A stretch of 36,122 nt of DNA from an uncultured Prevotella sp. (GCA_905236165.1 CAJOOC010000022.1:1-36122); one strand, 5' to 3'; counted from the stretch's first letter, positions 5,553 to 35,280 are shown. Made by a program: numbers and translations. The notes: generated from the sequence alone by a model not told the origin.

Positions 5553-6349
5553 GACAGCAGGTAAGGCCGAAGAAGAACCTGGGCCAGCACTTCCTCATCG
5601 ACCTGGGAATTGCGCAGCGCATTGCCGACACGGTGGATGCCTGTGCGGACATTCCCGTGCTGGAGGTGGGGCCGGGAATGGGCGTGCTCACGCAGTTCCT
5701 GGCGAAGAAGCCTCGGGAGCTGGCCGTGGTGGAGATAGACAAGGAGTCGGTGGAATATCTGAAGACCCACCCCTTACCCCTTCCGGGGGGAGGGGAGTTA
5801 AGAATCATCCAGGGTGACTTCCTGCGGATGGACCTCAGCGAGGTGTTCGGCAGCCGGCCGTTCGTGCTTACCGGCAATTACCCTTACGACATCTCGTCGC
5901 AGATATTCTTCAAGATGCTCGACAACCGTGACCTCATCCCCTGCTGCACAGGCATGATACAGCATGAGGTGGCTCTGCGCATGGCCGCCTGTCCCGGCAA
6001 TAAGCAGTATGGCATCCTGTCGGTGCTGATGCAGGCATGGTACGACGTGGAGTATCTCTTCACCGTCGAGCCTTCAGTGTTCAATCCGCCGCCCAAGGTG
6101 CAGAGCGCCGTCATACGCCTGACCCGCAACAACGTCACAGACCTGGGCTGCGACGAACATCTCTTCCGCCGGGTGGTGAAGACCACCTTCGGACAGCGCC
6201 GCAAGATGCTGAGAGTGTCGCTGCGTCAGCTCTTCGACCAACAGCCGCCAGCCGATTTCTTCGAGCAGGAGATGATGACGCGAAGGCCGGAACAGCTGAC
6301 GATAGCGGAGTTCGTAAATTTGACCAATCTGGTTTCTGAATGGATTTAG
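5549..6349 (+). CDS. rsmA: 16S rRNA (adenine1518-N6/adenine1519-N6)-dimethyltransferase
   Basis: RPKKNLGQHFLID, EVGPGMGVLT, VVEIDKE, GDFL, LTGNYPYDISS. ATGA overlap with the helicase. Confidence 0.95.
5765..5806. repeat. GC-rich hairpin microelement inside rsmA
   Basis: ACCCACCCCTTACCCCTTCCGGGGGGAGGGGAGTTAAGAATC, translated in frame as THPLPLPGGGELRI. Confidence 0.6.
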
Positions 6350-7644
6350 TCTTAGGTCGACGAAGGATTAGTTTCTCACTGGGCAGTGAGACGATGGTCA
6401 CGGTGCTGGTGTGCCTCGTGTGGGCCTCTCCGCTTGTGGGCTACTCGAAGGGCATCGTCAACCGACTGCCTTTGCTGGGCGACTATTCCGAGTGGGTATT
6501 GGCTGCCGTCTATGTCATTCCGACGCTGCTGGCTCTTCCGGCACTGGTCAAGAAGTTCTGCCTGGCCGACTACCTGTTCTTCTTCGCCTGTGTGTTCTAC
6601 TACCTGTGGAACTACGTGGCCTATCCTGAGAACTCCATCTTTCTCACGGAAAACGCTTTCCTTTGTCTCTGCTGCGTCTTTCCCTACTATTTCATAGGGC
6701 GTCTCGTTGACATTGAAAAATACTACAAACTGTTCCTCTATCTGTCTGTCGCCTGCATCTTGATGGATTTGTTCTATTTCCTGGTCTATGCCCCAGCGAA
6801 TAAGGACATGGCCGTAGTGGCGGGCGATGACAATATGCACCGTGCCTACCTGTCTTTGCCTCATGTGACGATGCTGCTGTGGGCCACGCTGCGTGAGTTC
6901 CGCCTTTGGAAGCTGGTGATGACCTTTCTCGGCGTGCTGTTCCTCCTTTCCTGTGGCACACGCGGTCCGCTGGTGTGCTTAGGTTTCTTCGGCTTCGTCT
7001 ACTTTCTCTTCTTTATGAATTTTCGCGGTGCCATCTACGTGAAGGGCATCATCGTGGCATTAGTTGCGCTGACCGTCGCTTTTCTCAGGGAGATAGCCCT
7101 CTTCCTGGCTCAGGCCTTTCTTGGCCTGAACCTGAGTACGCGCATCATGGAGAAGATTGTCTTTGGCGGTCTGGACAACGATACCTACCGGAGTGATTTG
7201 CGCCAGATTCTCTACGCGGCTCTGGAGCGCAGCGACCATTTCTTCGGCATCGGATTGCTGGGTTGCGGTAACTATGGCATCAACTATCCGCACTTCTTTC
7301 CGCTCGATTTCTTCTGTACGTTTGGTTATTTCCTTGGCAGCGTGCTGATGGTTGTGCTGGCCATGCTGATTGGCTGGGCTTTCTGGCGGTCGGGAAACAA
7401 GATGGTGAAGGTGTTTATGCTTTTCCTGATATCACAAAGCATCATCAAGCTGATGTTCAGCTCGACGTTTGTCTTCTCACCCTTTTTCTTTATGCTTATC
7501 GGTTTCTGCGTAAGTCAGCTGTTAGTGCCTGCGGAAGAAAGCGGTGACGGGGTGGAGAAGCATAGCGATGCGGGAGTAACAGGAATTCAGCAGCAGCTTT
7601 ATGCCGACATGGTGGTGAAAGATAATCCAGAGGAAGGAGGATAG
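6340..7644 (+). CDS. O-antigen polymerase-like (Wzy-like) multi-TM protein
   Basis: About ten hydrophobic segments; RGPLVCLGFFGFVYFL; position in a polysaccharide locus. Confidence 0.65.
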   Translation: MDLVLGRRRISFSLGSETMVTVLVCLVWASPLVGYSKGIVNRLPLLGDYSEWVLAAVYVIPTLLALPALVKKFCLADYLFFFACVFYYLWNYVAYPENSIFLTENAFLCLCCVFPYYFIGRLVDIEKYYKLFLYLSVACILMDLFYFLVYAPANKDMAVVAGDDNMHRAYLSLPHVTMLLWATLREFRLWKLVMTFLGVLFLLSCGTRGPLVCLGFFGFVYFLFFMNFRGAIYVKGIIVALVALTVAFLREIALFLAQAFLGLNLSTRIMEKIVFGGLDNDTYRSDLRQILYAALERSDHFFGIGLLGCGNYGINYPHFFPLDFFCTFGYFLGSVLMVVLAMLIGWAFWRSGNKMVKVFMLFLISQSIIKLMFSSTFVFSPFFFMLIGFCVSQLLVPAEESGDGVEKHSDAGVTGIQQQLYADMVVKDNPEEGG

Positions 7645-8511
7645 CTTCGACATGTTGAGGATGTAGAGCACCCTCTTGTTGTAGTTTTCCGGCTCGGCTT
7701 TCTCCAGCATCCTCTTCAAGTCATCATCTTTACATTGGGCAATCAGCTGCAGGCATTTCTCGCGGTACAATTCTGCGGCTTGCATCTTCTCCCGAGCATC
7801 GTCCTTGAAGTTGAAGCTGATGTTCTCGTCGGACTGTCTGAAGCTGACCAGTAGCTTGTTGGCCGATGCGATGCCTTTTTCCATAGCGAACAGGAATGTC
7901 GAGAGGCTGTCGCTGCCCCATGCTCTCGGCAGGGAGTAGTAACCGCCGGTTTCCCTCATGTGGGCTGTCCTGAGCATAAACTCTGATACCGTCTGCGTGC
8001 GGTAGCCTCTCAGGTTGTGCCACATATAGTCGTAGACCGTCTCGTAACTCGGTGGAGCAGGGGACAGGTCTACGGTTTTCCCCTCCTTGTCTGTTTTCTT
8101 CAGCCTTGCGCGGAATACATCAACGTCTGGGTACTGCTCCGACAGTCCCAGCATCGTCTCCACGAACTGCGGCTCGTAGGTGTCATCGTCGCAGAGCAGG
8201 CAGAAGTACTCTCCCTGTGCGTACGACAGGCATTTGTTCCATTGTGCCACGAGGTCCTTGCCGCCTATGTTCTCCTCGTTGATGTAGTATCTTATCCTTT
8301 CGTCGTGAAAGGATTCGACGATGGGCGTTATCTCGTAGGGTGAATGGTCGTTGACCACCACTATCTCTATGTTCTTGTAGGTCTGATTGACGGCTGACCG
8401 TATAGACTCCTCTAAATAGGTAGCCTTATAGGCAGGGATGGCGATGGTGACCAAGGACCCACCCCCTCCCGAGGGGAGGGGAGACTGAGGAGAGTGATGG
8501 GGATTATTCAT
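7522..8511 (-). CDS. Glycosyltransferase family 2
   Basis: VTIAIPAYKATYLEESIRSAVNQTYKNIEIVVVNDHSP...CDDDTYEPQFVETML: GT-A fold with DDD motif. Confidence 0.9.
   Translation of the reverse strand: MNNPHHSPQSPLPSGGGGSLVTIAIPAYKATYLEESIRSAVNQTYKNIEIVVVNDHSPYEITPIVESFHDERIRYYINEENIGGKDLVAQWNKCLSYAQGEYFCLLCDDDTYEPQFVETMLGLSEQYPDVDVFRARLKKTDKEGKTVDLSPAPPSYETVYDYMWHNLRGYRTQTVSEFMLRTAHMRETGGYYSLPRAWGSDSLSTFLFAMEKGIASANKLLVSFRQSDENISFNFKDDAREKMQAAELYREKCLQLIAQCKDDDLKRMLEKAEPENYNKRVLYILNMSKLSSFLWIIFHHHVGIKLLLNSCYSRIAMLLHPVTAFFRRH
8455..8490. repeat. GC-rich hairpin microelement in the N-terminal coding region of the GT2
   Basis: GGACCCACCCCCTCCCGAGGGGAGGGGAGACTGAGG, read on the minus strand as PQSPLPSGGGGSL. 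Confidence 0.6.
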
Positions 8512-8551
8512 TTTAGTGAGGAGTTAGGAGTTATGAGTGAGGAGTGAGAGG
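8509..8551. repeat. GAGTTAGGAGT low-complexity tract at the wzx/GT2 junction
   Basis: CATTTTAGTGAGGAGTTAGGAGTTATGAGTGAGGAGTGAGAGG. It spans the GT2 start codon and the flippase stop codon. A related tract is at 11079-11117. Confidence 0.6.
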
Positions 8552-9993
8552 ATGTTCTTGTCTTTTATAACAAACAGATGGAGGCATCCGTAATAGGCAG
8601 CGACAAAGACGGCAGCGAGAATCATGGCCCTGATGGGCACAGGGTCGAACTGCCTTATCGCGATGCAGGCGGCCACAGCGGGAATGGCGTAGAGAATGTT
8701 CTTTAGCGTCTTCCGTGTGGCTTCAGGAAGCGGGAAATAGCCTTTTGCGGCAATGAGCGCCGCAATCATCACGCTTACTTCCGACGCCACCCATACCAGC
8801 GCAGAGCCTACGCACCCCATGCTCTTTACGAGCAGCAGGTTTGCCGTCAAGCCCACTGTGGCACCGATGATGGCATTGCGGAGGACGATGCCGTCCTTCT
8901 TCTGAGCCATGAGAATCTGCACCACCAGTATCTGTTCGAAGCCGATGATAAAGACCAGCGGCATGATGATGGTCAGCGGGATGGCTGCTTTCTCGTATCC
9001 TGGCCCCGAGATGATGGCGATGATTTCGGGTGCAAACACGGCACCAAGGATGATGAGCGGGAAAGAGAAGTACACCAGCATGGAGAACGACACGCGGATT
9101 TTCTCCCTGAACTCCTGCGTCTTGCCCTCCGACATCAGGTTGCTCATACGCGGGAGCATCACTCCGGTGAACGCCAGCAGGAACCCTATGGCGATATGAT
9201 GCAGCTTTGTGGCCGTGGTGTAGAGTCCCACCTCCGTCGTGTTGGTCACAAATCCGAGAAACGCAATGTTGAACGACGTGTACATCGACGTCAGCAGGCT
9301 GTAGCTGCCCAGCGTAAGGCTTGACTTCAGGTACTTCGGCCTTCGGGCTAAATGAGAAATGATAAATGAAAAATAAGAAATCTTCCTGTCTGCGGAGGGG
9401 AGATGGGGAGGGTCAAGGTATTTTCTGGCGTGTATGCAGTTCACCAAGGCATTAAGCCCCTCCGTGGCCACTGTCAGGCCGAAATAGATGGGATAGTCGT
9501 CGGGCTTGCGGATAAAGACAAACACCGCCACCACGTAGAGGCATCTGATGGCGATGCTCCTGATGGTGATATACCTGAAATCCTCCAGGCCACGGTACAG
9601 CCAGTCAATCATGGCGAAGGCAACAATCAGCTTGCCCACGCCGATATACATCAACGTCTTGTACTCCGCAAACTGTGGGACGACTTGGATGCTTATCACC
9701 AGCAGCGTTCCGAAAAGTGCTACGAGCATCACGTTCAGGCCAATAATGTTGTAGAACGCGCGGCTGAGCTCCGCCTTGTTGCCCTGACAGCGGGCAATCT
9801 CCCGGATGCCCGTGTTCTGTATTCCCAGCATGGAGAACAGCACGAAGTAGCCGATGATGCAGTCCACGAAATTGCAGATGCCGATATTTGCCACGCCCAG
9901 CACCCTCGACACGTAGGGGAAGGTGATGAGGGGGAAGATATAGCCTGCGGTGGTCAGCACGCTGCTGTAGAGGAAATTCTTTTTGATGCCCAC
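8524..9993 (-). CDS. Wzx-like polysaccharide flippase (MATE/MOP superfamily), first copy
   Basis: MGIKKNFLYSSVLTTAGYIFPLITFPYVSRVLGVANIGICNFVD...; 12-14 TM pattern. Confidence 0.9.
   Translation of the reverse strand: MGIKKNFLYSSVLTTAGYIFPLITFPYVSRVLGVANIGICNFVDCIIGYFVLFSMLGIQNTGIREIARCQGNKAELSRAFYNIIGLNVMLVALFGTLLVISIQVVPQFAEYKTLMYIGVGKLIVAFAMIDWLYRGLEDFRYITIRSIAIRCLYVVAVFVFIRKPDDYPIYFGLTVATEGLNALVNCIHARKYLDPPHLPSADRKISYFSFIISHLARRPKYLKSSLTLGSYSLLTSMYTSFNIAFLGFVTNTTEVGLYTTATKLHHIAIGFLLAFTGVMLPRMSNLMSEGKTQEFREKIRVSFSMLVYFSFPLIILGAVFAPEIIAIISGPGYEKAAIPLTIIMPLVFIIGFEQILVVQILMAQKKDGIVLRNAIIGATVGLTANLLLVKSMGCVGSALVWVASEVSVMIAALIAAKGYFPLPEATRKTLKNILYAIPAVAACIAIRQFDPVPIRAMILAAVFVAAYYGCLHLFVIKDKNILSLLTHNS
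9335..9414. repeat. AAATGAN 7-bp tandem tract plus GC-rich flank inside the flippase CDS
   Basis: gggctAAATGAGAAATGATAAATGAAAAATAAGAAATC, then TGCGGAGGGGAGATGGGGAGGG. Minus-strand product: DPPHLPSADRKISYFSFIISHLARRP. Confidence 0.65.
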
Positions 9994-10081
9994 CTTGTAT
10001 ATCTACGATTTACTGGTTTTCAATTATATTTATTTGCAATATAAAAAGATAACGTAATAATAATTGAAATATTATGCCTCA

Positions 10082-10190
10082 GACTTTAAGCCGTCCTTAC
10101 TATGAGAAAGAACGGCTTATTCTATTTGAAAGAACGGCTTATTCTATGAGAAAGGACGGCTTATTCTATGAGAAAGAACGGTTTAAAGTC
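10082..10190. repeat. 22-bp tandem array with 19-bp terminal inverted repeats (site A)
   Basis: Units at 10106, 10128, 10150 and 10172 (GAAAGAACGGCTTATTC + 5 nt, exact 22-bp period). GACTTTAAGCCGTCCTTAC (10082-10100) is inverted relative to GAAAGAACGGTTTAAAGTC (10172-10190), 16/19 matches. Confidence 0.85.
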
Positions 10191-10220
10191 CAAGGGGTGA
10201 CGATAAAAAACGCGAGGATA

Positions 10221-10252
10221 TTTGGCTCAGTCTGAAAAATTACTTAACTTTG
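10221..10252 (+). promoter_or_regulatory. Bacteroidetes-type promoter for the forward glycosyltransferase operon
   Basis: TTTG (10221-10224), 20-nt spacer, TAACTTTG (10245-10252). Confidence 0.7.
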
Positions 10253-10277
10253 CACGCGAAATGACAATAATGAAGAA

Positions 10278-11444
10278 ATGAAAAGTATTGCTGTCTGTGC
10301 GGTCTGCTATAACCGGAAGGATTCTTTGGCGAGGTTGCTGTCATCGCTTGACGCTGCCTTTTACCCCGTACCCGTGACGCTGATTATCAGTATTGACAAG
10401 AGCGACACGACGGCGGTGGAGGAGTATGCCGACGGCTATGTATGGCGTCACGGCGAGAAGCGTGTGGTGAAGCACCAGGAGAATCTGGGACTGCGGAGGC
10501 ACATCCTGAGCATTGGCGACTGGTTGGAAGAGTTCGATGCGGTTGTGGTCTTGGAAGACGACATCTATGTTGCACCCAGTTTCTACTATTATGCCCAGCA
10601 ATGTGTGGAGCGATTTGCTGACGATATGGGTGTGGCGGGTATCAGCCTGTACAAGTATCCGTATTGTGCTGATAGTCGTCAGCCGTTTATGCCTATGGTG
10701 ACTGACAGTGATGTCTTTCTGATGAAGAGGGCTGTTTCGTGGGGTCAGGTGTGGATGCGTGAGCAGTGGTTGGAGTTTAAGAAGTGGTACGATGTTCACA
10801 GTGAGCCTTTCGGTGTGCTGCCTCACTTGCCGAGGGGTGTATGTGAATGGCCTGAGTCGTCTTGGCTGAAGTTCCATATCAGATATTGCATCGAGGAGGA
10901 CAAGAGCTTTGTCGTGCCCTATACGTCTCTGAGCACTTGTTTCTGTGACTTGGGAACTCATGCCGTGAAGAAGCAGACGCACACGCAGACGGTGTTGCTA
11001 CAGGGCGAGAAGAGGCATTGGAACCTGAATCCTACCGTGACCTACGACGGTTTCTTTGAGGCGGAGTGTTTGTACGGGCATTTTAGTGAAGTGTTAGGAG
11101 TAAGGAATGAGGAGTTGTGCATTGACCTCTATGGTTCGAAGGGCAACAGGATGGGCCGGCGCTACTGGCTGACAAGGGAACAGCTGCCCTTCAAGGTGGT
11201 ACGCTCGTATGCCTTGGAGATGAAGCCTTGGGAGCTGAATGTGCTCCATGAGATAGAGGGTCGCGAGATATTCCTCTACGACACGAGTGTGGGAGCTAAG
11301 CGTCCGCATGAGCCAGATAATGATAAAAAAGCGGACTACTATCTCTATTCTACTAACTTGGATGTAAGGAGCATATTGCGAGAGAAGGTGATGAAGACCT
11401 TGGTGGATGCTAAACACGCGGTCTTCGGTCTAAATGAAGAATGA
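10278..11444 (+). CDS. Glycosyltransferase (GT2/GNT-I-like GT-A fold)
   Basis: MKSIAVCAVCYNRKDSLARLLSSLDAA...VVVLEDDIYVAPSFYYYAQ. Confidence 0.8.
   Translation: MKSIAVCAVCYNRKDSLARLLSSLDAAFYPVPVTLIISIDKSDTTAVEEYADGYVWRHGEKRVVKHQENLGLRRHILSIGDWLEEFDAVVVLEDDIYVAPSFYYYAQQCVERFADDMGVAGISLYKYPYCADSRQPFMPMVTDSDVFLMKRAVSWGQVWMREQWLEFKKWYDVHSEPFGVLPHLPRGVCEWPESSWLKFHIRYCIEEDKSFVVPYTSLSTCFCDLGTHAVKKQTHTQTVLLQGEKRHWNLNPTVTYDGFFEAECLYGHFSEVLGVRNEELCIDLYGSKGNRMGRRYWLTREQLPFKVVRSYALEMKPWELNVLHEIEGREIFLYDTSVGAKRPHEPDNDKKADYYLYSTNLDVRSILREKVMKTLVDAKHAVFGLNEE
11079..11117. repeat. GTTAGGAGT low-complexity tract inside the GT CDS
   Basis: CATTTTAGTGAAGTGTTAGGAGTAAGGAATGAGGAGT shares ~32/37 positions with 8509-8545. 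Translated HFSEVLGVRNEELC. Confidence 0.55.
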
Positions 11445-11459
11445 AGAATTTACTGCCTC

Positions 11460-12275
11460 ATGAAGATTCTCATAAACTATGCGAACCCGAGGTTTGAACG
11501 CGCTAGAAGGCTCAACTCGTGGGCAGGCCGGCACATCGCCCATTTCGACAAGGTCTGCGAATTCGGCCCTGACGATGTCGATGAGGACTTCCGCCGTGCC
11601 CATGCCGACATCTTTGCTTACGAACGCGGGAATGGCATGTGGCTTTGGAAACCTTATTTCATCAACAAGGTTATCGAAGAATGTAACGACGGAGACTACA
11701 TATTTTATTTAGATAGCGGCGCGTTCTTCATGCGCGACCCTGCACCGCTGTTTGCTTATGTAACTGACGACAATCCAATTTTTGTTACGGATATTCCTCT
11801 GTTGGAATCGTGCTGGACGAAGCCTTCGTGTTTCGACACGATGGATGCTCATGCTTTCAAGGACACCAACCAGATTCAGTCGGGCTATATCCTGTTCAAG
11901 GTGAATGACTATACCAGGAAGTTCTTCCGTGAGTATTTCGATTTATGCAGCAACACCGACGTGCTCATATCCGAGGGCCTCGGAAAGTATGACAAGGTGG
12001 AGAAACATTACGGCAACGGCTTCGTCTCGCACCGCGAAGACCAGTCGGTGCTGAGCCTGCTGTGCAAGAAGAAGGGCATCAAGGCACACAGGGACATCTC
12101 CCAGCGAGGAATTCATCCCGAGACCTTCTATAATCCTCATTACGCCTATCGTGTGCCAGAACATCCTGCCGACACGTACAAGCCGATGGTCTATCTGCAC
12201 AAAAGCACGTCCTTGTGGAGGTTCCTGAAGTTAAGAATCGGCCTGTTCATCAAGGATGTACGGACTAAGAAATAA
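11460..12275 (+). CDS. Putative glycosyltransferase / nucleotide-sugar transferase-like protein
   Basis: Full-length ORF in the GT operon; DYIFYLDSGAFFMRDP resembles a DxD-type motif. Confidence 0.55.
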   Translation: MKILINYANPRFERARRLNSWAGRHIAHFDKVCEFGPDDVDEDFRRAHADIFAYERGNGMWLWKPYFINKVIEECNDGDYIFYLDSGAFFMRDPAPLFAYVTDDNPIFVTDIPLLESCWTKPSCFDTMDAHAFKDTNQIQSGYILFKVNDYTRKFFREYFDLCSNTDVLISEGLGKYDKVEKHYGNGFVSHREDQSVLSLLCKKKGIKAHRDISQRGIHPETFYNPHYAYRVPEHPADTYKPMVYLHKSTSLWRFLKLRIGLFIKDVRTKK

Positions 12276-12280
12276 GCACT

Positions 12281-14777: not shown

Positions 14778-14931
14778 TTAGACAAATAACGGAAAACAAG
14801 CCCCTGTTATTGTGGCAGACCGTTTTTTATCTTTTTTCACCTTCCAAACAATCCCACACATTTATTGCAATAAATGCATGAATTATTCGTTAAAATGTAG
14901 GGAATCTTGCTTATCTGGTTCCGCCAGTCTG

Positions 14932-17643
14932 ATGAAGAGGATAGCAGTCATACTTACCGTTTTCAACCGACGGGAAAAGACCGTCAGCTGCCTCAAGCAC
15001 CTCATTGAGGCTGCTGAGGCTGCCGCCGGGCTTGTTAGCATCTCCGTGTTCCTCACTGACGACGGCTGCACGGACGGCACCGCCGAGGCCGTCCAATCTT
15101 TTTGCAGGGATTTGGAATCGTCTTTTTGCAGGGATTTGCAATCCCCGCTCCTCCACATCGTGCAGGGCGACGGCACCCTCTACTGGGCGGGAGGCATGAG
15201 GAAGGCGTGGCAGGCTGCCATCGACAGCGACACCACTTGGGACTACTACCTGCTCATCAACGACGACACCTATTTATATAATAATGTGTTCCCACAGCTC
15301 ATCGAGGCTATCGAGTATGGCTACAGCCAGACGGGCCGCTACGGCATGGCGTCGGGGATCACCTGTCAGCCGGGACGACCGGAGGAAATAACCTACGGCG
15401 GGCTGAATTTCGTCAACAAGACCAAGGGACGGCAGGAGCTGGTGAAGCCCACGGGAACACCGCAGCGCATAGACATGACCCATGCCAACATCTTGCTGGT
15501 TCACCACACGGTGGTCGATGAGATAGGCATCTTCCACAAGGGCTACCGCCACAGTTGTGCCGACAACGACTACAGCATGACGGCCGCACGTCACGGACTG
15601 CCCGTCTATTCCACCTCAATGGTCTGTGGGGAATGTGAGCGCGACCATTCATCCCTGAAAGAACAAGCACAACAGCTGGTGCGGATGTCGCTTGCAGAAA
15701 GGAAGAAATACGTGAACGCTCCCCTGCACTGCGACAGTGACTATCTGCTGCTCGTGCGCCGCAACATGCCCCTGCGATACCCTATGGCTCGCCTCATGCG
15801 TGCCATAAGACTCTACCTGCCAAAAGTGTATTACCACATTACCAATTTCAGGGGAGTCTATAAAATGGTCAATGGCCAAAGGTCAATGGTCAAAGGCCTT
15901 CTGCTTCTGCTTTCGTCATTGTCTGCCGAGGCGGCTCCCTTTGTCTTCACCATTGACAGCCAGGAGAAGTTCGGCCAGATGAACGCGGTGCTGACCAAGG
16001 CCATCGCCGAGGGTGAGACCGATATCGTCATGGACATTACGAAGGGCGTGTATTATTTCCGTGAGAATCACTTGCTCCGCCGAAGCGACCGCAGCCCCGA
16101 CGTGTCAGTAACCATACAGGGACACGACGCCGTGCTCATAGCCGACGGCAACGACTATAGCAACTCTCAACTCTCAAATCTCAACCCGAACGCTGCCTTC
16201 ATCGACACCAGCAGTCTGACTGCTTTCGACTTCTGGGACGACTGCCGCTATGCAGAGGGCTTGGTGGAGGTCGTCGACAAGGAGGCAAAGCTCTGCCGGC
16301 TGCCCGTCTCAACTCCCCTCTCCTTCGGGGAGGGGTCGGGGGAGAGGTCCGTTCAAGGGGATTTGCAATCCCCGCTTTACATCAACATCCCTCAATGGTT
16401 CTACAGCAGCACCTACAAGGTGGAAAAGGCCGAGGAGAGCTATCTCTATTTCACTGTGCCTAACTTGAAGTATGTCGAGCGCAAAGAGCGCAGCGACTAC
16501 AACGTGAACTACGACTACCTCATCGGTGGACAGAACATCCGCTTCAGGCTCTGGAATCCTTCCCAATGGGGCAGTTCCAAACTGCCCTCCCATCGGGAGG
16601 GGACAGGGGTAGGTGCCTTACACGAATGTAGGGTGACCTGTTTCCTGAACTGTGACAAGTCGTGCTACAAGACCTTCGCCCTCTCAGGACTTCACTTCCT
16701 GGGCAACAGAAACGGCACCTCCCTCATCAAGCTCGACAGCGTCGAGACAGACAGCTTCAGCATCAGCGATTGTCGCTTCGAAGCCATCAAGAGCTATGTG
16801 CTGTGGGCCAACCGTTCGCCCAGCGTCAGCTTCAGCAAGAACCGTGTGGAGCATTGCAACAATGTCGTTCTCTCCTCCAACTCCTGTGCAGAAACACGCG
16901 TCGTCGGCAACACGTTCCGCGACTGCGGAGAGAACATGATGCAGACGTTTTGCGTGAACTGCAAGGGCAAGGACTACTACATCGCCCACAACAAATTCTG
17001 CAATTACGGCTATGCGGCTGTGGGGCTCGGCATCTGGCTCGGGCATGAGAAGGAACAGGAGTCGTCGGGCATCGTGGAGTATAACGAGATTTGGCTCGAC
17101 CCCGACTATATCGCCCACAAAGAGCGGTTCACGCTGCAGGACACGGGAGCCATCTATCTCTGGCCGAAGAACGACGACGTCACCATTCGCTATAACTATA
17201 TCCACGATATCGACGGCATGTGCCTCAACCGTGGAATATTCTGCGACGACGGAGCCAGCCACTTCAGCGTTTATGGCAACGTCATCATCAACGTCGTCAA
17301 CAGCTATAGCATCGAGTCGCGCAACTGTGAGAACAAACTCTCAGGCGCTAACACGGATATACGGATAGAACACAACATCGTAGACCGCGCCATCAAGTTC
17401 GAGGGCAGCTCCAAGGGCGACAACCATTGCGTCGTCTCCGGCAACGTGATGCTCTGCAGGGAAGGAGAACCGCCGCCCGCAAACGTCTATTCCCGGCTGA
17501 CTACCGAAAGTCCTGACCGGCAAATTCCCTTCTACGGCCACGACCCAGATGGAATCATCGTCAGCCGTCAGCAAATGGAACAGCTCAGGAAACTGCCGCA
17601 TTACAACAATGCAATAAAAGCCGCAAAGTGGCGTTATAAATAA
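14932..17643 (+). CDS. In-frame fusion: GT2 (residues ~1-310) followed by a signal-peptide-bearing right-handed parallel beta-helix protein
   Basis: N-term MKRIAVILTVFNRREKTVSCLKHL...LINDDTYLYNN. Then MVKGLLLLLSSLSAEAAPF signal-like segment from ATG 15886, then many short beta-helix turns. ORF is open from GTG 14812; ATG 14932 fits the GT start better. Confidence 0.8.
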   Translation: MKRIAVILTVFNRREKTVSCLKHLIEAAEAAAGLVSISVFLTDDGCTDGTAEAVQSFCRDLESSFCRDLQSPLLHIVQGDGTLYWAGGMRKAWQAAIDSDTTWDYYLLINDDTYLYNNVFPQLIEAIEYGYSQTGRYGMASGITCQPGRPEEITYGGLNFVNKTKGRQELVKPTGTPQRIDMTHANILLVHHTVVDEIGIFHKGYRHSCADNDYSMTAARHGLPVYSTSMVCGECERDHSSLKEQAQQLVRMSLAERKKYVNAPLHCDSDYLLLVRRNMPLRYPMARLMRAIRLYLPKVYYHITNFRGVYKMVNGQRSMVKGLLLLLSSLSAEAAPFVFTIDSQEKFGQMNAVLTKAIAEGETDIVMDITKGVYYFRENHLLRRSDRSPDVSVTIQGHDAVLIADGNDYSNSQLSNLNPNAAFIDTSSLTAFDFWDDCRYAEGLVEVVDKEAKLCRLPVSTPLSFGEGSGERSVQGDLQSPLYINIPQWFYSSTYKVEKAEESYLYFTVPNLKYVERKERSDYNVNYDYLIGGQNIRFRLWNPSQWGSSKLPSHREGTGVGALHECRVTCFLNCDKSCYKTFALSGLHFLGNRNGTSLIKLDSVETDSFSISDCRFEAIKSYVLWANRSPSVSFSKNRVEHCNNVVLSSNSCAETRVVGNTFRDCGENMMQTFCVNCKGKDYYIAHNKFCNYGYAAVGLGIWLGHEKEQESSGIVEYNEIWLDPDYIAHKERFTLQDTGAIYLWPKNDDVTIRYNYIHDIDGMCLNRGIFCDDGASHFSVYGNVIINVVNSYSIESRNCENKLSGANTDIRIEHNIVDRAIKFEGSSKGDNHCVVSGNVMLCREGEPPPANVYSRLTTESPDRQIPFYGHDPDGIIVSRQQMEQLRKLPHYNNAIKAAKWRYK
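15097..15144 (+). repeat. 24-bp tandem duplication in the GT2 coding region
   Basis: TCTTTTTGCAGGGATTTGGAATCG followed by TCTTTTTGCAGGGATTTGCAATCC, giving SFCRDLES-SFCRDLQS. Confidence 0.85.
15864..15898 (+). repeat. GGTCAATG low-complexity bridge between the GT2 and beta-helix portions
   Basis: AATGGTCAATGGCCAAAGGTCAATGGTCAAAGGCC, translated MVNGQRSMVKG. Confidence 0.7.
16164..16190 (+). repeat. CAACTCTCAACTCTCAAATCTCAAC tract in the beta-helix coding region
   Basis: Tandem 8-bp CAACTCT-like units, translated SNSQLSNLN. Confidence 0.5.
16308..16376 (+). repeat. Hairpin microelement plus GGGATTTGCAATCCCCGCT motif in the beta-helix coding region
   Basis: CTCAACTCCCCTCTCCTTCGGGGAGGGGTCGGGGGAGAGGTCC, then AAGGGGATTTGCAATCCCCGCT. 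The 19-mer GGGATTTGCAATCCCCGCT also occurs at 15131-15149. Confidence 0.7.
16582..16613 (+). repeat. GC-rich hairpin microelement in the beta-helix coding region
   Basis: CTGCCCTCCCATCGGGAGGGGACAGGGGTAGG, translated LPSHREGTGVG. Confidence 0.55.
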
Positions 17644-24155: not shown

Positions 24156-24215
24156 TCCCAGAAGCACGATGCACTGGGTTGTCGGGGAGTTTAATACGTC
24201 CAAACCCGGAGGGAG

Positions 24216-24354
24216 GACGGAGAAGACCCTGAGAAAGGACGGCTTTTTCTCGCATATTCTCGAGAGAATTGACGAGAAAGAACGGCTTTTTCTACGAGAG
24301 AGGACGTAGCTTACGGAGAGTATGGACGGACCTTTCTCCAAGAAAGGAATAATC
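24216..24354. repeat. Degenerate member of the GAAAGAACGGCTT repeat family (site B)
   Basis: GAGAAAGGACGGCTTTTTCTC (24231-24251), GAGAAAGAACGGCTTTTTCTAC (24274-24295), GGACGGACCTTTCTCCAAGAAAGGAATAATC (24324-24354); the last aligns with GGACTATCCTTTCTCCTGGAAAGAACGGCTTATTC at site C. Confidence 0.7.
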
Positions 24355-26844: not shown

Positions 26845-26872
26845 CGGATTAGAATTAGCATGATGATTAAAA

Positions 26873-28018: not shown

Positions 28019-28020
28019 GG

Positions 28021-29094
28021 ATGAGTAAGAACAAAGAAAGGCTCCTGGTCGTAGGACCGCTCCCTTGCGAGAAGTATAACTGTCAGTGGGGCGGTGCGAC
28101 GGTGCTGATGAAGAACTTCCGCGACTATCTGCTCGAGAAAGGCATAGGCCATCGTTTCGTGCAGACCAACAAGTATGTCAACCCACACACGCTGGAGCTG
28201 CGCCCTCGTGCCAACCAGCTTTACTTCATCACGCATTTTGCCGCCGCGCTGCCTTGGTGCGACACGGTGATGTTTAATTTCTCAGACCACGGCACGGTGA
28301 ACATGTTTCCCATGCTCTCATCCTTAGCCCGTAAAATGGGCAAGAAGGTGGTGCTACGAAAGTTCGGCGGCTCCTTCGACATTTACTTGCAGGACGTTCC
28401 CGACGACAAGAAAGGAAAGGTCGTCAGCGCCATCAAAGCCGCAGACCTTGTGTTCTTTGAGACAAAGGCAGGCATTGCCCACCTGAAGACACTTGTTGGC
28501 GAGACGGACAAGATTCACTGGTTTCCTAACGTTAGGAAGGCTGCGCCACAGCGGAAAGACCCCTCGCAGTTTTCCAGGAAGCTGGTCTACATGTCGCACA
28601 TCTCGAACGAGAAAGGCGTTGGCTGCCTGTTAGAGGCGTTCGGCAGGTTGCCGGAGGACTACAGCCTGGACTTCTATGGGGCTATCAAGGAGGACTGTTA
28701 TGATAATTTCGACTGGCAGGCTCACCGGGTGAATTACAAAGGCGAGGTGTCGGCGGCTGAAGTCCTGCGCAGGTTGCCTGACTATGACCTGCTGCTCCTG
28801 CCTTCTTACCGTGAGGGTTACCCGGGAATCATCATCGAGGCACTTTCCGTAGGACTGCCGGTCATCTCCACACAAGTGGGAGGAATACCCGAAATCATAA
28901 CCGACGGCTTCAACGGACGGCTTGTGACACCTGGCACTGAGAAGGAACTAATGGAGGCCATAACCTCCATCGACGAGCGGAACTATGCAGTGTATTGCGA
29001 AAACGCATATCGTTCGTTTTGCGAGCATTTCGACTCGGAAAAGACGAACGAACGTATGCTGAACGAACTTATGGATGGAAGGCATAACTCATAG
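28021..29094 (+). CDS. Glycosyltransferase family 4
   Basis: LVYMSHISNEKGVGCLLEAFGRL...LLLLPSYREGYPGIIIEALSVGLPVISTQVGGIPEII. Confidence 0.93.
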   Translation: MSKNKERLLVVGPLPCEKYNCQWGGATVLMKNFRDYLLEKGIGHRFVQTNKYVNPHTLELRPRANQLYFITHFAAALPWCDTVMFNFSDHGTVNMFPMLSSLARKMGKKVVLRKFGGSFDIYLQDVPDDKKGKVVSAIKAADLVFFETKAGIAHLKTLVGETDKIHWFPNVRKAAPQRKDPSQFSRKLVYMSHISNEKGVGCLLEAFGRLPEDYSLDFYGAIKEDCYDNFDWQAHRVNYKGEVSAAEVLRRLPDYDLLLLPSYREGYPGIIIEALSVGLPVISTQVGGIPEIITDGFNGRLVTPGTEKELMEAITSIDERNYAVYCENAYRSFCEHFDSEKTNERMLNELMDGRHNS

Positions 29095-29110
29095 TTAGGA
29101 GGTCTCTGAC

Positions 29111-30676
29111 ATGTTGATTGTTAGATATTTAGAAACCCTGAGGCACTTGCAGCTGACGCAGGTTGTCCACCAACTTAGGCACCGGTTCTATAAGCCTAAG
29201 TTGGGGACTGAGACTTTCGTGGTGGCTAACCATGATGCGGCATTGTTCACAGAGCCTATACCCAAGCCCTGCTGCTATGACAGTCAGGGGCGGTTGAGCT
29301 TCCTGAACATTGCCGACACTTTCCGAGGCTGGAACATGGATGACCATGGAGCGCTGTGGGCCTATAACCTGAACTACATGGACTGGCTGGAGCAGGAGGA
29401 CATTTCAGTGGATGAATGTCTGCGGTGGATTGACCGCTTCATCGACGAACTGCCGGATAACAGGGTGGGCCAGGACCCGTACCCCATCGCCCTGCGTGTC
29501 ATCAACTGGGCGAAGTTCTTCAGCAAGCACCCCGAGTGCAGGAGCGAGAGGCGGCTCGACTCCATGTATGCCCAGACCCTGCTGTTGGAGCGTAAGCTGG
29601 AATATCACTTGCTGGGCAACCATCTGCTGGAAGATGCGTACGCCCTTTTTATTGTGTCCGTTTTCTTTAAAGACAGCCATTTGTTCAAAAAGGCAACCCG
29701 ACTGTTGGCAAAACAGTTGCAGGAGCAGATTCTTCCTGACGGTGCACACTATGAGCAATCGCCTATGTATCACTGCATTATGCTCGACCGACTGCTCGAC
29801 TGCATCAGTTTCTCTGTAAGCAATCCTCTTCAGTTTAAGGGTCAGGAGGCTTTCAGCACGATGCTCAAGCAGAAAGCATCTCTGATGCTGGGGCATCTAC
29901 AGAGCACTGTCTATCGTGACGGTACTATTCCAATACTGAACGACTCGGCATACGGTATCGCACCTGATGCTGAGCAGTTATTTGAATATGCACGGAGGCT
30001 CAACATCTCATGGATACCAATTCCCCTCAAAGAATGTGGTTACAGGAAAATGGGCGACAGCCATATAGAAGTGATAGCCGACATAGGAAACATTGCCGCG
30101 TCTTACCAACCAGGCCATTCCCATGCCGATACTCTCAGCTACGAATTGCGCATAGACGGGAGGCCAGTCATCGTTGATACAGGAATCTCCACTTATAATA
30201 AGAACGAGCGTCGCCAGTATGAACGCAGCACAGCGGCACACAACACGGTGTCGGTTGGCGGCAAAGACTCTATCCACGTATGGGGAGGCTTTCGCGTGGG
30301 ACGAAGAGCAAAAGTTAGCGTTGTAAAGAACGAACTGAATGATATTGTTGCCCGTCATGACGGATTTGGTAAACAAGCCGTTCATGAACGCCATTTCGCC
30401 TGCAAGGACGGTGCATTTTTAGTAGAGGACTGCATTGTGGGAAAAGAGGTTGAGGCAATAAGCTATTTGCATCTCGCTCCAGGGTTGCACGCTGAGATAG
30501 TTTCAGAGACAGATGGTGTGGTTAAAATAGGGAATGTCTCTATTAGGGTGGAACACTGCCATCGCATGGAACTTCAGAATGATTACGTGTCAGTTGAATA
30601 CAATCGGCTACAGTCTTGCAATGTACTTGCGCTGCATTTCGTACAATACCTTAAATATACTGTTCTTTCAACGTAA
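29111..30676 (+). CDS. Cytosolic heparinase II/III-like protein
   Basis: YNLNYMDWL, LGNHLLEDAYAL, GHSHADTLSYELRIDGRPVIVDTGISTYNKNERRQYERSTAAHNTVSVGG. Confidence 0.9.
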   Translation: MLIVRYLETLRHLQLTQVVHQLRHRFYKPKLGTETFVVANHDAALFTEPIPKPCCYDSQGRLSFLNIADTFRGWNMDDHGALWAYNLNYMDWLEQEDISVDECLRWIDRFIDELPDNRVGQDPYPIALRVINWAKFFSKHPECRSERRLDSMYAQTLLLERKLEYHLLGNHLLEDAYALFIVSVFFKDSHLFKKATRLLAKQLQEQILPDGAHYEQSPMYHCIMLDRLLDCISFSVSNPLQFKGQEAFSTMLKQKASLMLGHLQSTVYRDGTIPILNDSAYGIAPDAEQLFEYARRLNISWIPIPLKECGYRKMGDSHIEVIADIGNIAASYQPGHSHADTLSYELRIDGRPVIVDTGISTYNKNERRQYERSTAAHNTVSVGGKDSIHVWGGFRVGRRAKVSVVKNELNDIVARHDGFGKQAVHERHFACKDGAFLVEDCIVGKEVEAISYLHLAPGLHAEIVSETDGVVKIGNVSIRVEHCHRMELQNDYVSVEYNRLQSCNVLALHFVQYLKYTVLST

Positions 30677-30718
30677 TTCTTTTTACGTTGGAGACATGGA
30701 ATTGCAACAAGAAAAAGA

Positions 30719-31534
30719 CTAAGGCAACAGCTGGTACACCCTCACCCAGTCGAAGCGGGTCTCATAGACTTTGTCCATTTGTGGCATAAAGAAATCATAG
30801 CCACCTGAGCCTACACTCTGATTAAGCACAATGAACAGGGGATGGTCGAACGACCTCTGGCTTTCAGCAAGGAGGGCAGGGTTGTCAGACTTTAGATATT
30901 TACCCACCTTAACATCGTCTACTGTCCAGACAATACTTTTCTCATCCCAGATTACTCCATAGACATGCCATTTGGTGACATCGCAAGGATATTTGAATTT
31001 ATTGTGCTGCCCATGATTCTTGCGGATAGTCGTCAGCTGAGAATGAGCAGTGTGATTTGAAATCTTCCTGTTGCCAAACACTTCCATTATATCAATTTCA
31101 CTATACAGAGGCTGCTTGGAGGTAGGCCACGTCCTGAGCCAGGCTGCAGGAAAATTGCCGATTCGCAAATTTGTCTTCATGCGAACTTCTATCTTACCAT
31201 AACGAAATTCAAATTTATTTTTTGTAAAGACAGCCCCTGTGAGCATCTGGGCCGTATCGGCATACAATGATTTGTTAGGAATTGCCCGACATACTAGTTT
31301 TCCATTCTAAATAAATGCTACGGCAGACGAGTCTGCGACCCATCTGTTCCATCCGGAATTGGAACGCGGCGGGCATGACCATACTGTGCTGTCGGGCCTG
31401 CTTCCGTCTGGCAAATTGAACTCGTCGCTGAATACCAATGTGTAATCACCATCATCTATTACAACAGCATTGCTTGTTGAGTCAGCAGAAACAAATAACA
31501 GTATTAAAACGACCAAGAAAGAATAATTATTCAT
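30719..31534 (-). pseudogene. Glycoside hydrolase family 16, interrupted by one in-frame TAG
   Basis: Both halves are in the same frame: ...YTLVFSDEFNLPDGSRPDSTVWSC...AVAFI*NGKLVCRAIPNKSLYADTAQ...SEIDIMEVFG (GH16 ExDxxE motif intact). TAG maps to plus-strand 31307-31309. Confidence 0.85.
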
Positions 31535-31606
31535 GTGCAAATGTGAAATTATGATGCAAAGAAACACTTTTTTTAAAAATTATTCTTGTATTTGTCAAAA
31601 TAATAG

Positions 31607-31614
31607 TACCTTTG
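31607..31614 (+). promoter_or_regulatory. Promoter -7 element upstream of the nucleotide-sugar dehydrogenase
   Basis: TACCTTTG; the -33 TTTG is not at the usual 20-nt spacing. Confidence 0.5.
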
Positions 31615-31636
31615 CACAAAAATTTATATATATAGT

Positions 31637-32845
31637 ATGAAAGCATGTTTTATGGGCTTGGGCTACATCGGACTGCCCACCGCTATTATTGCTGCAAAAC
31701 ATGGAGTTGACATTATAGGAGTAGACATCAATCCGCAAGTTGTTGAACAGACCAATAAGGGACATCTGCACATTATAGAACCCGGCATGGAGGTAATCCT
31801 GAAAGAAGTTGTCAGCAAAGGCAAGCTTCATGCCAGTACCACCCCCGAGGTCAGCGATGCCTATTTCATGGTCGTGCCCACCCCATTTATGGGAAACCAC
31901 GAGCCCGACATCAGTTATGTTGAGGCAGCTACACGCATGGTTATTCCCCTGTTGAAAGAAGGCGACCTCTACGTCATAGAGTCTACGTCGCCCGTAGGAA
32001 CTACCGACAAGATGGCCGAGTTGATTTTCAGCGAGCGTCCCGAACTGCGTGGTATGCTTTATATTGCTTACTGCCCAGAGCGCGTGCTCCCCGGCAACGT
32101 CATCTATGAACTGGTCCACAACGACCGCGTCATTGGCGGCCTCGACGAGGCTTCTACAAAAAAGGCTCAGGAGTTCTACGCACAGTTCGTAAAGGGTACG
32201 CTTCATCCCACCAACTGCAAGACGGCCGAGATGTGCAAGCTGACGGAGAATTCGTGCCGAGACTCACAGATAGCCTTTGCCAACGAACTGAGCATTATCT
32301 GCGACAAGGCTGGAATTAACGTGTGGGAACTCATTGCGCTGGCTAATAAGCATCCCCGAGTGAACATTTTGCAGCCAGGATGTGGAGTGGGAGGACACTG
32401 CATCGCCGTAGACCCCTATTTCATCTCCAGCAAATTCCCTCACGAGGCACGCATGATTGCCATGGCACGCGAGGTGAACAACTACAAGGCTGACTGGTGT
32501 GCCGAGAAAGTGCAGAACGCCATTCTGCGCTTCGAACTGGAGAAGAAACGCAAGCCCGTCGTGGCCATGATGGGACTGGCCTTCAAGCCCAACATCGACG
32601 ACCTTCGTGAGAGTCCTGCAAAATATATCGTCAACAAGGTGATGCAGAGCAGGAACAATGCCAGCATCCTTGTCGTAGAACCCAACATTCAGGAACACAA
32701 GGTCTTTAAGCTCACCGACTATCGGAAAGCATACGAAGAGGCTGACATCGTTGTATTCCTCACTGCCCACGACCCCTTCAAGAAGTTGGAATGGAACGAC
32801 AATAAGGTTATTCTCGACTTCTGTGGAATTTTCAGGAAATCGTAA
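31637..32845 (+). CDS. wecC: UDP-N-acetyl-D-mannosamine dehydrogenase
   Basis: MKACFMGLGYIGLPTAIIAAKHG; ESTSPVGTTDKM; CPERVLPGN; KLTENSCRDSQIAFANELS; PGCGVGGHCIAVDPYF; MGLAFKPNIDDLRESPA. Confidence 0.92.
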   Translation: MKACFMGLGYIGLPTAIIAAKHGVDIIGVDINPQVVEQTNKGHLHIIEPGMEVILKEVVSKGKLHASTTPEVSDAYFMVVPTPFMGNHEPDISYVEAATRMVIPLLKEGDLYVIESTSPVGTTDKMAELIFSERPELRGMLYIAYCPERVLPGNVIYELVHNDRVIGGLDEASTKKAQEFYAQFVKGTLHPTNCKTAEMCKLTENSCRDSQIAFANELSIICDKAGINVWELIALANKHPRVNILQPGCGVGGHCIAVDPYFISSKFPHEARMIAMAREVNNYKADWCAEKVQNAILRFELEKKRKPVVAMMGLAFKPNIDDLRESPAKYIVNKVMQSRNNASILVVEPNIQEHKVFKLTDYRKAYEEADIVVFLTAHDPFKKLEWNDNKVILDFCGIFRKS

Positions 32846-32860
32846 TTCGTTATTCGTACA

Positions 32861-34069
32861 TTGAACGTCCTCATCGTTTCCTTCTACTATCCACCTGAGA
32901 TGGGCGCAGCCCCCTCGCGCATCAGTAACATGGCCGAGGGGTTGTTGGCTCAGGGATCAGACGTGGACGTACTTACTTGTCTGCCCAACTATCCTAAGGG
33001 GCGTATCTTTGACGGCTACCGTCATCGTTTTTCAAAACGGGAAACCTTAAACGGCATAAACGTGTTCCGGTACTGGACGTATGCCACCGTGTCGAAGAAC
33101 GCTGTAGCGCGTCTACTGGGCATGCTGGTGTTTGCTGTCGATATATGGGTTTTCGGTCTGAAGTTCAGGCGAATACGCAGTTACGACCACGTCATCATAC
33201 AGAGTCCCCCGCTTCCCATTGGCTGTTCGGCCATGTTGCTCTTCCGCTGTCTCTATCGTAAGAGCACCGTCCTAAATGTCTCCGACCTATGGCCTACATC
33301 AGCTGTTGAGTTAGGAGCCGTTAAGGAAGGTAGCACTAATTACAAGGTGCTGAAGTGGATGGAAAACTTTGTATATAAGAAGGCCAGTGCCTACCAAGGG
33401 CAAAGCAAGGAAATCGTTGACCACATAGAGCAATTCGGCTATCATAAGCCCCATTTCCTCTACCGCAACCTACAGCCCGCCGCTGATGAGGAATTATCTA
33501 ATTTTGCCGCCGCTGACACACTTGTAGAAAGGAAACCCTTGCGTCTTGTATATGCTGGTCTTCTTGGTGTGGCCCAGGATATCCTTGGACTCGTGAAGGC
33601 CATTGACTTCAAGGCCTTAGGTGTCGAACTGCACATCTACGGTGGAGGTAACCAGGCAGAGGACATTGAGGAATATGTGAAGATCCATGACTGTGGCGTG
33701 ACCTGCCATGGCTACAAGACCAAAGTGGAGATTAACAAGGCGCTTGGCATCTACCATGCTTCAATCGTTCCCCTTGCAGTCACTATCAAGGGTGCAGTGC
33801 CTTCCAAGATTTTTGACCTCCTGCCACATGGTACGCCTATCATCTTCTGCGGAGGAGGAGAGGGAGAGATTATCGTGAACGACTATCGATTGGGGCTGGT
33901 ATCTCCGCCAGGAGACTACAAACACCTTACTGAGAATATATGTCTGCTCAAAAACATGAGTGATGACGACTACCGGCAGTTCCGTGTCAATTGCCTTAAG
34001 GCCGCCAAAGGAGAATTCTCCTTCACCGAGCAGATGAAGCAATACTACTTGTTCCTTAAGAAACTATGA
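32861..34069 (+). CDS. Glycosyltransferase family 4 (WcaI/WbuB-like), TTG start
   Basis: MNVLIVSFYYPPEMGAAPSRISNMAEGLLAQGSDVDVLTCLPNYPKGRIFDGY. Confidence 0.92.
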   Translation: MNVLIVSFYYPPEMGAAPSRISNMAEGLLAQGSDVDVLTCLPNYPKGRIFDGYRHRFSKRETLNGINVFRYWTYATVSKNAVARLLGMLVFAVDIWVFGLKFRRIRSYDHVIIQSPPLPIGCSAMLLFRCLYRKSTVLNVSDLWPTSAVELGAVKEGSTNYKVLKWMENFVYKKASAYQGQSKEIVDHIEQFGYHKPHFLYRNLQPAADEELSNFAAADTLVERKPLRLVYAGLLGVAQDILGLVKAIDFKALGVELHIYGGGNQAEDIEEYVKIHDCGVTCHGYKTKVEINKALGIYHASIVPLAVTIKGAVPSKIFDLLPHGTPIIFCGGGEGEIIVNDYRLGLVSPPGDYKHLTENICLLKNMSDDDYRQFRVNCLKAAKGEFSFTEQMKQYYLFLKKL

Positions 34070-35280
34070 AGAAAATCATGCTTGTTTTCGGCACCAGGCC
34101 GGAGGCGATAAAGATGGCTCCGCTGGCCATTGAGCTGAAGCAGCGGAAAGAAGATTTTGAGACCATCGTCTGCGTTACGGGTCAGCACCGCGAGATGCTC
34201 GACCAGGTGTTGCGCATCTTCGACATCAGGCCCGAGTACGACCTGAACATCATGAAGCAGGGGCAGGACCTCTATGACATCACCGCCCGGGTGCTGACGG
34301 GTATGCGTGACATACTCAAGGAGGTAAAGCCCGACGTGGTGCTCGTTCATGGCGACACCACTACCAGCACCGCCTCCGCCCTGGCCGCTTTCTACCAGCA
34401 GATACCCGTAGGACATGTCGAGGCAGGGCTGCGCACGCACAACATCTACAGCCCTTGGCCGGAGGAGATGAACCGCCAGCTAACGGGCCGTATAGCCACC
34501 TATAACTTCGCTCCAACGCCCCTCAGCCGCCAGAACCTGCTCGACGAGGGAGTGGCCGACGACAAAATCACCGTTACGGGAAACACCGTTATCGACGCCC
34601 TCCATATCGTCGTGAAGAAATTGAAAGACGACAGCAAGCTGCGCCGGCAGGTGGTCGACACACTGCTGAATTGCGGCTATGACATTTCCCGGCTTAGCGA
34701 AATCGAAAACCGAAAATCCGAAAATCGTAAATCCCGCCGTCTGGTTCTTATCACCGGCCATCGCAGGGAGAACTTCGGCGAGGGATTCATACGCATGGTG
34801 ACCGCGATGAAAGACCTTGCCGTGAAATACCCCGACGTGGACTTCGTCTATCCCATGCACCTTAATCCCAACGTGCGAAAGCCCATTGCACAGGTCTTTG
34901 AGGGGGATGAAACAAAAAATGTAAATTGTAAATCCGTAAATAGTAAATTCCCTAATTTCTTCTTCATCGAGCCCCTGCAATACCTTGAGTTCGTATATCT
35001 GATGGAGAAGTCCACCATCGTGCTCACCGACAGCGGCGGCATACAAGAGGAAGCTCCCTCGCTGGGCAAGCCGGTACTCGTCATGCGCGACACCACCGAG
35101 CGTCCCGAGGCCGTCAGCGCAGGAACCGTGAAGCTCGTAGGCACCGACTACGACGCCATCGTCCGGAGCGCCTCCCTGCTACTCGACGACGAGCAGGCAT
35201 ACAACGCCATGAGCCGGGCCGTCAACCCCTATGGCGACGGACTGGCAAGCAAAAGAATAGCCGAAAAACTAAAGTCTTGA
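34066..35280 (+). CDS. wecB: UDP-N-acetylglucosamine 2-epimerase (non-hydrolyzing)
   Basis: VFGTRPEAIKMAPL, TGQHREMLDQ, VHGDTTTS, GHVEAGLRT, TGHRRENFGEGF, DSGGIQEEAPSLGKPVLVMRDTTERPEA. Confidence 0.96.
   Translation: MKKIMLVFGTRPEAIKMAPLAIELKQRKEDFETIVCVTGQHREMLDQVLRIFDIRPEYDLNIMKQGQDLYDITARVLTGMRDILKEVKPDVVLVHGDTTTSTASALAAFYQQIPVGHVEAGLRTHNIYSPWPEEMNRQLTGRIATYNFAPTPLSRQNLLDEGVADDKITVTGNTVIDALHIVVKKLKDDSKLRRQVVDTLLNCGYDISRLSEIENRKSENRKSRRLVLITGHRRENFGEGFIRMVTAMKDLAVKYPDVDFVYPMHLNPNVRKPIAQVFEGDETKNVNCKSVNSKFPNFFFIEPLQYLEFVYLMEKSTIVLTDSGGIQEEAPSLGKPVLVMRDTTERPEAVSAGTVKLVGTDYDAIVRSASLLLDDEQAYNAMSRAVNPYGDGLASKRIAEKLKS
34698..34734 (+). repeat. CGAAAATC low-complexity tract in wecB
   Basis: CGAAATCGAAAACCGAAAATCCGAAAATCGTAAATCC, translated EIENRKSENRKS. 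Confidence 0.65.
34914..34959 (+). repeat. GTAAAT low-complexity tract in wecB
   Basis: AAAAAATGTAAATTGTAAATCCGTAAATAGTAAATTCCCTAATTTC, translated KNVNCKSVNSKFPNF. Confidence 0.65.

Follow-up and report, generated by a model that had tools for sequence, protein, structure and literature searches.

Short in-frame repeat tracts in conserved genes of a Prevotella contig are probably for the most part arms of two families of small hairpin elements

Short repeat tracts that lie in frame inside conserved genes of an uncultured Prevotella sp. probably derive, for the most part, from two families of small selfish hairpin elements of rumen Prevotella, unrelated to each other, of which they would be loose arms or copies without a gene. 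The tracts occur on a stretch of 36,122 nucleotides (GCA_905236165.1 CAJOOC010000022.1:1-36122; the window in what follows), which is contig C22 of a metagenome bin of 2.5 Mb and 171 contigs (83% complete, 4.5% contamination). Full-length copies of the first family code for the 23S rRNA intervening-sequence protein, a four-helix bundle (IVP, PF05635), those of the second for a Vsr-like endonuclease (DUF559, PF04480), with one gene per copy in each case. The first-pass annotation of the window had listed eleven tracts as members of several unrelated classes of short elements, placed in frame as are the palindromic elements of Rickettsia. All eleven were found where they had been placed, with the reading frame intact in each, and the general picture is borne out by empty sites in relatives, by the unrelated inserts that different species carry at the same codons and by many further copies of each repeat family. 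Arms, full-length copies with one gene, gene-less copies, copies inside open reading frames (ORFs), empty sites and the recurrent occupation of a loop are all observed. Genome searches covered one genome per species; the window's own genome was sampled as 20 stretches, and the counts of period-7 arrays and of profile matches given for it refer to 310 kb.

Tandem repeats of 7 bp are strongly over-represented, as is typical of heptameric short tandemly repeated repetitive (STRR) sequences and long simple sequence repeats (LSSRs). In the own genome, exact period-7 arrays number 31, compared to 0.2 in shuffled sequence, and period 8 is likewise enriched. Two further counts of arrays gave 29 and 51, compared to 0, and period 7 dominates. 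How such arrays are organized is best seen for the word GAGGTRCGAGGTRCGAGG, which is present in 9 of 150 genomes of the genus, with up to 158 matches in one of them, and absent from the other 141. Its plus-strand and minus-strand arrays are paired at a distance of about 65-75 bp, and the core between them has recurring ends (GAGAATA...GGTAATCTC). CGAGGT elements are inverted pairs of 74-206 bp. About 28 of the 51 sampled GAGGTRCGAGGTRCGAGG elements lie inside long ORFs; one insert is found inside the RNB domain of RNase R (relative to PDB 8cdu), and an element also occurs inside the gene for a MetH-type protein. In longer copies, the same arms flank an IVP gene (e.g. in G117, G056 and L134). 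The arms of the IVP elements of G056 and G117 consist of CGAGGT, the same word as in the inserts within ORFs.

IVP genes were detected in 87 of 100 genomes of the genus (80 of them over the family cut-off), with up to 15 per genome. As a control for the similarity of inverted flanks, random loci were scored, giving a 95th percentile of 10 and a maximum of 17. The PF05635 gene is located between terminal inverted repeats scoring above this 95th percentile at 27 of 30 loci of the genus (median score 18.5), which is the arrangement known from intervening sequences (IVSs), and 22 of 30 IVP genes from elsewhere in the phylum also have an arm score above 10. Tandem words of 7-10 bp occur in the flanks of 76% of the IVP loci and of 5% of the controls. 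The words vary from element to element, while the two arms of an element remain complementary. Gene-less copies share terminal inverted repeats and sub-terminal motifs with the gene-carrying IVP elements, as miniature inverted-repeat transposable elements (MITEs) do with their parent elements, and the solo DUF559 arms described below fit this pattern too.

Two IVP elements are found in the own genome. In the one on contig C3, (TTAAGCA)n arms enclose an IVP gene that is broken (L397, G000:C3:12581-12895) and has an in-frame TAA, and this copy looks dead. The other, on contig C56, has TTGAGAA/CTCAACT arms, and these are the words of the window site 16158-16190. Judged from such sequence relations, the heptamer arrays of the window appear to be arms of IVP elements, which the first-pass annotation could not see. 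Among open-licence papers, the only one we found to join heptamers and IVSs describes the stem of the Coxiella IVS, which has two or three tandem heptamers depending on the strain (PMC4990558); an earlier description may exist elsewhere.

The second family was recognized from GC-rich hairpins, which numerous own-genome ORFs contain, among them those for GT4, HerA and DUF5107-TPR. One fused ORF codes for DUF559 and guanylate kinase, and attention therefore turned to DUF559. Long inverted GC-rich arms surround DUF559 genes of the genus at 24 of 29 loci (median score 24, on the same scale as above), and in full copies the gene is located between GC-rich CCTCACCCCCAACCCCTCCC-GGGAGGGGAGT arms. A plain IUPAC scan of the GC-rich pattern gave 86 matches compared to 52 for the backwards pattern; because of this high background it was dropped and replaced by a profile that was built solely from DUF559-element arms of other genomes. 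The profile has four matches on the window (5762-5799, 16312-16349, 8458-8485 and 16579-16611; E-values from 1e-7 to 1e-3), and these are exactly the GC-rich sites. Nothing above 6 bits was found in ten shuffles or in the reversed window. There are 8 matches in the own genome and 7 in 507 kb from relatives, with none in shuffles. This identifies the CCCCTCCCC hairpins as probable arms of elements with a DUF559 endonuclease gene.

An ABC-F gene and a Dna2-like helicase gene contain whole DUF559 elements in frame, both being internal cases, and in other long ORFs DUF559 is fused with IspF, with SpoU or with genes of the aspartokinase family. These in-frame and joined loci (L467, L470, L458, L462, L464, L474, L477) have GC-rich inverted arms in most cases; the ABC-F copy is without clear arms (score 8). 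A search of the open-licence literature for DUF559 combined with "inverted repeats" returned no paper, though an earlier description elsewhere is possible.

With both families described, the features of the window are as follows.

4169-4292, intergenic: gene-less inverted pair of GC-rich arms around a short core; the arms are nearly identical to those of DUF559 element L465 (G039).
5762-5799, plus strand: putative solo DUF559-type GC-rich arm that lies within rsmA with the frame kept, at about residues 73-86 of the protein, in the loop (peptide THPLPLPGGGELR); profile E=1.1e-7, orthologue loops, rsmA tree.
8458-8485, plus strand: putative solo arm of DUF559 type, located at the N-terminus or in the 5' leader of a minus-strand GT2 gene (7522-8511); profile E=7e-4.
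9335-9414, minus strand: composite in-frame flippase insert, a GC-rich stretch plus AAATGAN heptamers, adding 16 aa; orthologues, lag-7 P<5e-5, model confidence.
11079-11117, plus strand: GTTAGGAGT-like tract in a glycosyltransferase (GT) gene (10278-11444); unsupported as an element.
15097-15144, plus strand: in-frame 24-bp direct repeat with a GGGATTTGCAATCCC palindrome in the GT2 domain, adding 11 aa; orthologues; the palindrome recurs at 16358.
15864-15898, plus strand: AATGGTC heptamer array at the junction of a GT2/beta-helix fusion; gene ends in relatives.
16158-16190, plus strand: CAACTCT heptamer array whose words are also those of an arm of IVP element L398 (own genome, C56); lag-7, shared words.
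16312-16349, minus strand: putative solo arm of DUF559 type, placed in frame within the beta-helix part and adding about 9 to 11 aa including the palindrome to 16376; profile E=3.7e-5, alignment.
16579-16611, minus strand: putative solo DUF559-type arm in the beta-helix part; profile E=1.4e-3.
34698-34734, plus strand: CGAAAATC heptamer-like insert in wecB, adding about 10 aa; orthologues, E. coli WecB 1F6D, model confidence.
34914-34959, plus strand: TGTAAAT-like insert in wecB, adding about 10 aa; orthologues, E. coli WecB 1F6D.
35990-36070, intergenic: AAATGAN heptamer array of 9 copies; sequence, lag-7.

The inserts of the window are mostly single arms of 30-80 bp. Periodicity at lag 7 was tested against 20,000 codon-shuffled windows, and the tracts at 9335-9414, 15864-15898 and 16158-16190 exceeded all of them (P < 5e-5). 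The values for the two wecB tracts and for rsmA are marginal, with P of about 0.001 or below, which taken alone is not significant once the number of windows is counted. The lag-7 score of the tract at 11079-11117 is not significant, about 14 such windows being expected by chance in the span, and this tract is unsupported as an element. AAATGAN arrays were also considered as a high-copy family dispersed throughout the genome, and this was abandoned as the exact three-unit pattern was found only at 36001-36062. A scan of the window against Rfam returned one tRNA and otherwise no family.

Comparison with orthologues showed which tracts have been added to a protein, as the first-pass annotation had supposed for all of them. 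Those of rsmA, the flippase, GT2 at 15097 and both wecB sites are in-frame insertions or loop replacements. The flippase has 16 extra residues that are absent in 13 of 13 aligned relatives, and the 11 extra residues at 15097-15144 are absent in 12 of 12. WecB is longer by about 10 residues at each of two places, and E. coli WecB (1F6D) lacks both additions. At the codons of the first one, another species carries a different heptamer, (CAGCCAT)4, and a decayed version of the second one is found in two other species. In structure models, the insert is the least confident segment of both proteins: a predicted local distance difference test (pLDDT) score below 50 is reached solely at residues 213-219 of WecB and solely at residues 197-205 of the flippase, each time within the insert. 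Distant orthologues were not found to carry the same residues at the same positions. The tract at 16308 is a probable insert. Those at 8455, 16164 and 16582 carry repeats, their status as insertions being unproven; at 16164-16190 and 16582-16613 the relatives are too diverged for a call, and at the extreme N-terminus of the GT2 protein (8455-8490) the tract may be an untranslated 5' leader, because the conserved part of the protein starts downstream of the arm.

The array at 15864-15898 lies within one gene in the window, while relatives have two separate proteins: their GT2 ends at this residue, and homologues of the beta-helix part are encoded elsewhere. The array thus marks the point of a gene fusion. 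The fused ORF (14812-17643, 943 aa) codes for a glycosyltransferase plus a beta-helix protein, the latter starting in a signal-peptide-like stretch. It also contains the GGGGATTTGCAATCCCC-type palindrome twice, at 15131-15147 and 16358-16374. In a distant relative (L208, 1180-1225), a Y1_Tnp gene has a similar GGATTTGCAATCC hairpin nearby.

The rsmA loop is a hot spot that has been occupied repeatedly. It has 18 aa in the window gene, compared to the usual 14-15 residues (NEHFPRLRDNIIGG). Among 115 distinct Prevotella loops, 36 are long (17-67 residues), with sequences that are unrelated to each other and that consist of heptamer arrays, heptamer or octamer hairpins, or GC-rich hairpins. Strong lag-7 periodicity is seen in 12 of the 36 long loops and in none of the 79 short ones. 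On an rsmA tree that was built without the loop, at least 23 loop changes are required, 11 of which are forced by well-supported branches alone. In G034, an IVP element just upstream of rsmA and the in-frame hairpin within rsmA share 8-bp words and the sub-terminal motif at the start of the core. In several species (L122, L134, L138, L159, L168, L284) an IVP element is located no more than about 2-3 kb upstream of rsmA, as if attracted there. A second rsmA in the bin (L097, G000:C169) is 73% identical and insert-free; it is possibly a contamination, and the bin may for this reason be mixed.

That heptamers can be tolerated inside genes is understood from their length. As 7 is coprime to 3, a tandem heptamer codes for one cyclic peptide in every frame of a strand (CGAGGTA gives RGTRYEV, and PRTSYLV on the other strand), so that an array with one stop-free frame is open in all three. 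Arrays that are stop-free on both strands account for 13 of 23 coding arrays and for 4 of 57 intergenic ones (P=5e-6), a contrast that is partly built in because calling an array coding depends partly on the lack of stops; intergenic arrays are also AT-rich.

Several known systems share some of these features. Rickettsia palindromic elements (RPEs) are palindromes of about 100-150 bp that occur in frame in many unrelated protein genes and persist as extra loops (PMC10969869). In-frame insertion into unrelated protein genes is common to both, but RPE families are fixed in sequence, their peptides are conserved and no partner gene is known for them, while we find tandem words of 7-8 bp that differ by genome, or GC-rich arms, with full copies that carry IVP or DUF559. 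The 23S rRNA IVSs with an S23p/IVP ORF also have the gene between inverted arms, and the heptamers in the Coxiella stem vary by strain (PMC4990558). However, classical IVSs lie within 23S rRNA, from which RNase III excises them, whereas the elements described here are dispersed in the genome, many copies being gene-less and some lying inside protein-coding genes. A gene between inverted, genome-specific hairpins, with many solo hairpins elsewhere, is also characteristic of repetitive extragenic palindromes (REPs) and their REP-associated tyrosine transposases (RAYTs), together called REPtrons, but the partner here is IVP or DUF559 rather than a Y1 (HUH) transposase. Heptameric STRRs of cyanobacteria, and TAACTGA of Beggiatoaceae and Bacteroidetes, are 7-bp direct repeats that are mostly intergenic with few in ORFs; the accessible part of that account reports for them neither a partner gene nor pairing in inverted orientation, nor evidence of insertion from orthologues (PMC4679880). 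Finally, PF05635 resembles in fold and sequence Avd, an accessory protein of diversity-generating retroelements (PMC10053308).

Copies may spread by a copy-and-insert process that is aided in trans by the IVP or the DUF559 protein. DUF559 would perhaps act as a homing-like nuclease, while the Avd-like IVP would bind the hairpin as DNA or RNA. Most insertions into coding regions would be lost, the survivors being those which add 3n bases in a tolerant surface loop, and stop-free arrays of words that are not a multiple of 3 would be tolerated in any frame of insertion. That the two arms change together would be most simply explained if, in the hairpin, one arm served as the template from which the other is copied, but this is a guess. 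Transposition itself is what we infer from these patterns.

Several points weigh against an origin from IVP and DUF559 elements. To our knowledge, neither protein is a known transposase, and we know of no catalytic activity of IVP. No insertion event between strains was observed among the genomes searched, and no target-site duplication was noticed in the printed flanks, although no systematic search was made. The wecB and flippase inserts would be linked to IVP elements by class only, and the proposed homology within the first family is limited to architecture, sub-terminal GATTAC/GGTAATC motifs and words shared within a genome, because the words of the heptamers vary from one genome to another. 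Neither family includes the 15097 insert or the 16358 palindrome, which represent a further class without a partner; the GGGGATTTGCAATCCCC palindrome is absent from both IVP and DUF559 arms. Some of the long DUF559 ORFs (IspF, SpoU, kinase) could be due to chance read-through at gene ends. A role of IVP in mobility has been no more than an old hypothesis (PMC4990558).

Low-complexity surface loops might also grow without any mobile element, by replication slippage and fast drift, with the period of 7 set by the replication machinery. The copy number of the arrays does vary, and slippage has been proposed for heptanucleotide repeats, which in many genomes are more abundant than any other long simple repeat (Mrazek, as cited in PMC4679880). 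Yet slippage does not yield inverted array pairs with a shared core, nor does it explain arms around one particular gene family, GC-rich sites that match arms from other genomes, or a word that recurs across dozens of unrelated genes in a single genome while most other species lack it. Selection on coding regions should moreover favour periods divisible by 3, while period 7 dominates, and we regard this explanation as unlikely. Diversifying or phase-variable linkers that benefit the host in glycan and housekeeping proteins seem distinctly improbable: several sites do lie in a polysaccharide locus, and a slip by one 7-bp unit shifts the frame, but genes for RsmA, RNase R, MetH-like proteins and helicases have inserts just as often, most inserts consist of 3-4 units, and they differ freely between species at one and the same loop.

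REPs that are mobilized by a RAYT transposase (Y1_Tnp, PF01797) and sometimes land in genes would likewise flank their own gene in inverted, genome-specific fashion, and Y1_Tnp genes are present in 28 of 40 relatives and once in the own genome. Their loci have different arms, however, with inverted flanks in 8 of 18 and heptamer words or CCCCTCCCC arms in none, and it is IVP and DUF559 genes that are flanked by the heptamer and GC-rich arms instead; a RAYT transposase was thus rejected as the partner, and we give this scenario very little weight. The completeness (83%) and contamination (4.5%) of the bin, with its second rsmA on another contig, might point to an artefact of assembly or binning, but reading frames are preserved and the same features recur in dozens of independent assemblies and in genomes that are near-complete or consist of a single contig (G117, G016), so that such an artefact can practically be dismissed.

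Other repeats and genes of the window are listed for completeness. A 22-bp tandem repeat (GAAAGAACGGCTTATTC...), a further repeat class, occurs at 10100-10185, about 24200-24300 and 35931-35987, always in intergenic regions. At 2511-3031, two small neighbouring ORFs resemble, when read by eye, a RelBE/YoeB-type toxin-antitoxin pair; beside them is the gene for a BspA-like leucine-rich-repeat protein (243-2405).

In a wider sense, it is quite possible, and we propose it tentatively, that IVP and DUF559 are the mobility proteins of two unrecognized classes of selfish hairpin elements and that the 23S rRNA IVS is a special case of the IVP class. The arm words of IVP elements would change from genome to genome while the arms stay complementary, and words whose length is not a multiple of three would let the arms invade genes in any frame. 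IVP, an old puzzle, and DUF559, long listed as being of unknown function, would thereby gain a genomic context, inside selfish hairpin elements, that suggests a role for them. Such elements would provide a recurrent route to species-specific loops in conserved proteins like RsmA, WecB and RNase R, and to the fusion of neighbouring genes. The frame rule, a word length that is not a multiple of three and no stop on the strand that is read, is simple and would explain which arrays occur in genes.

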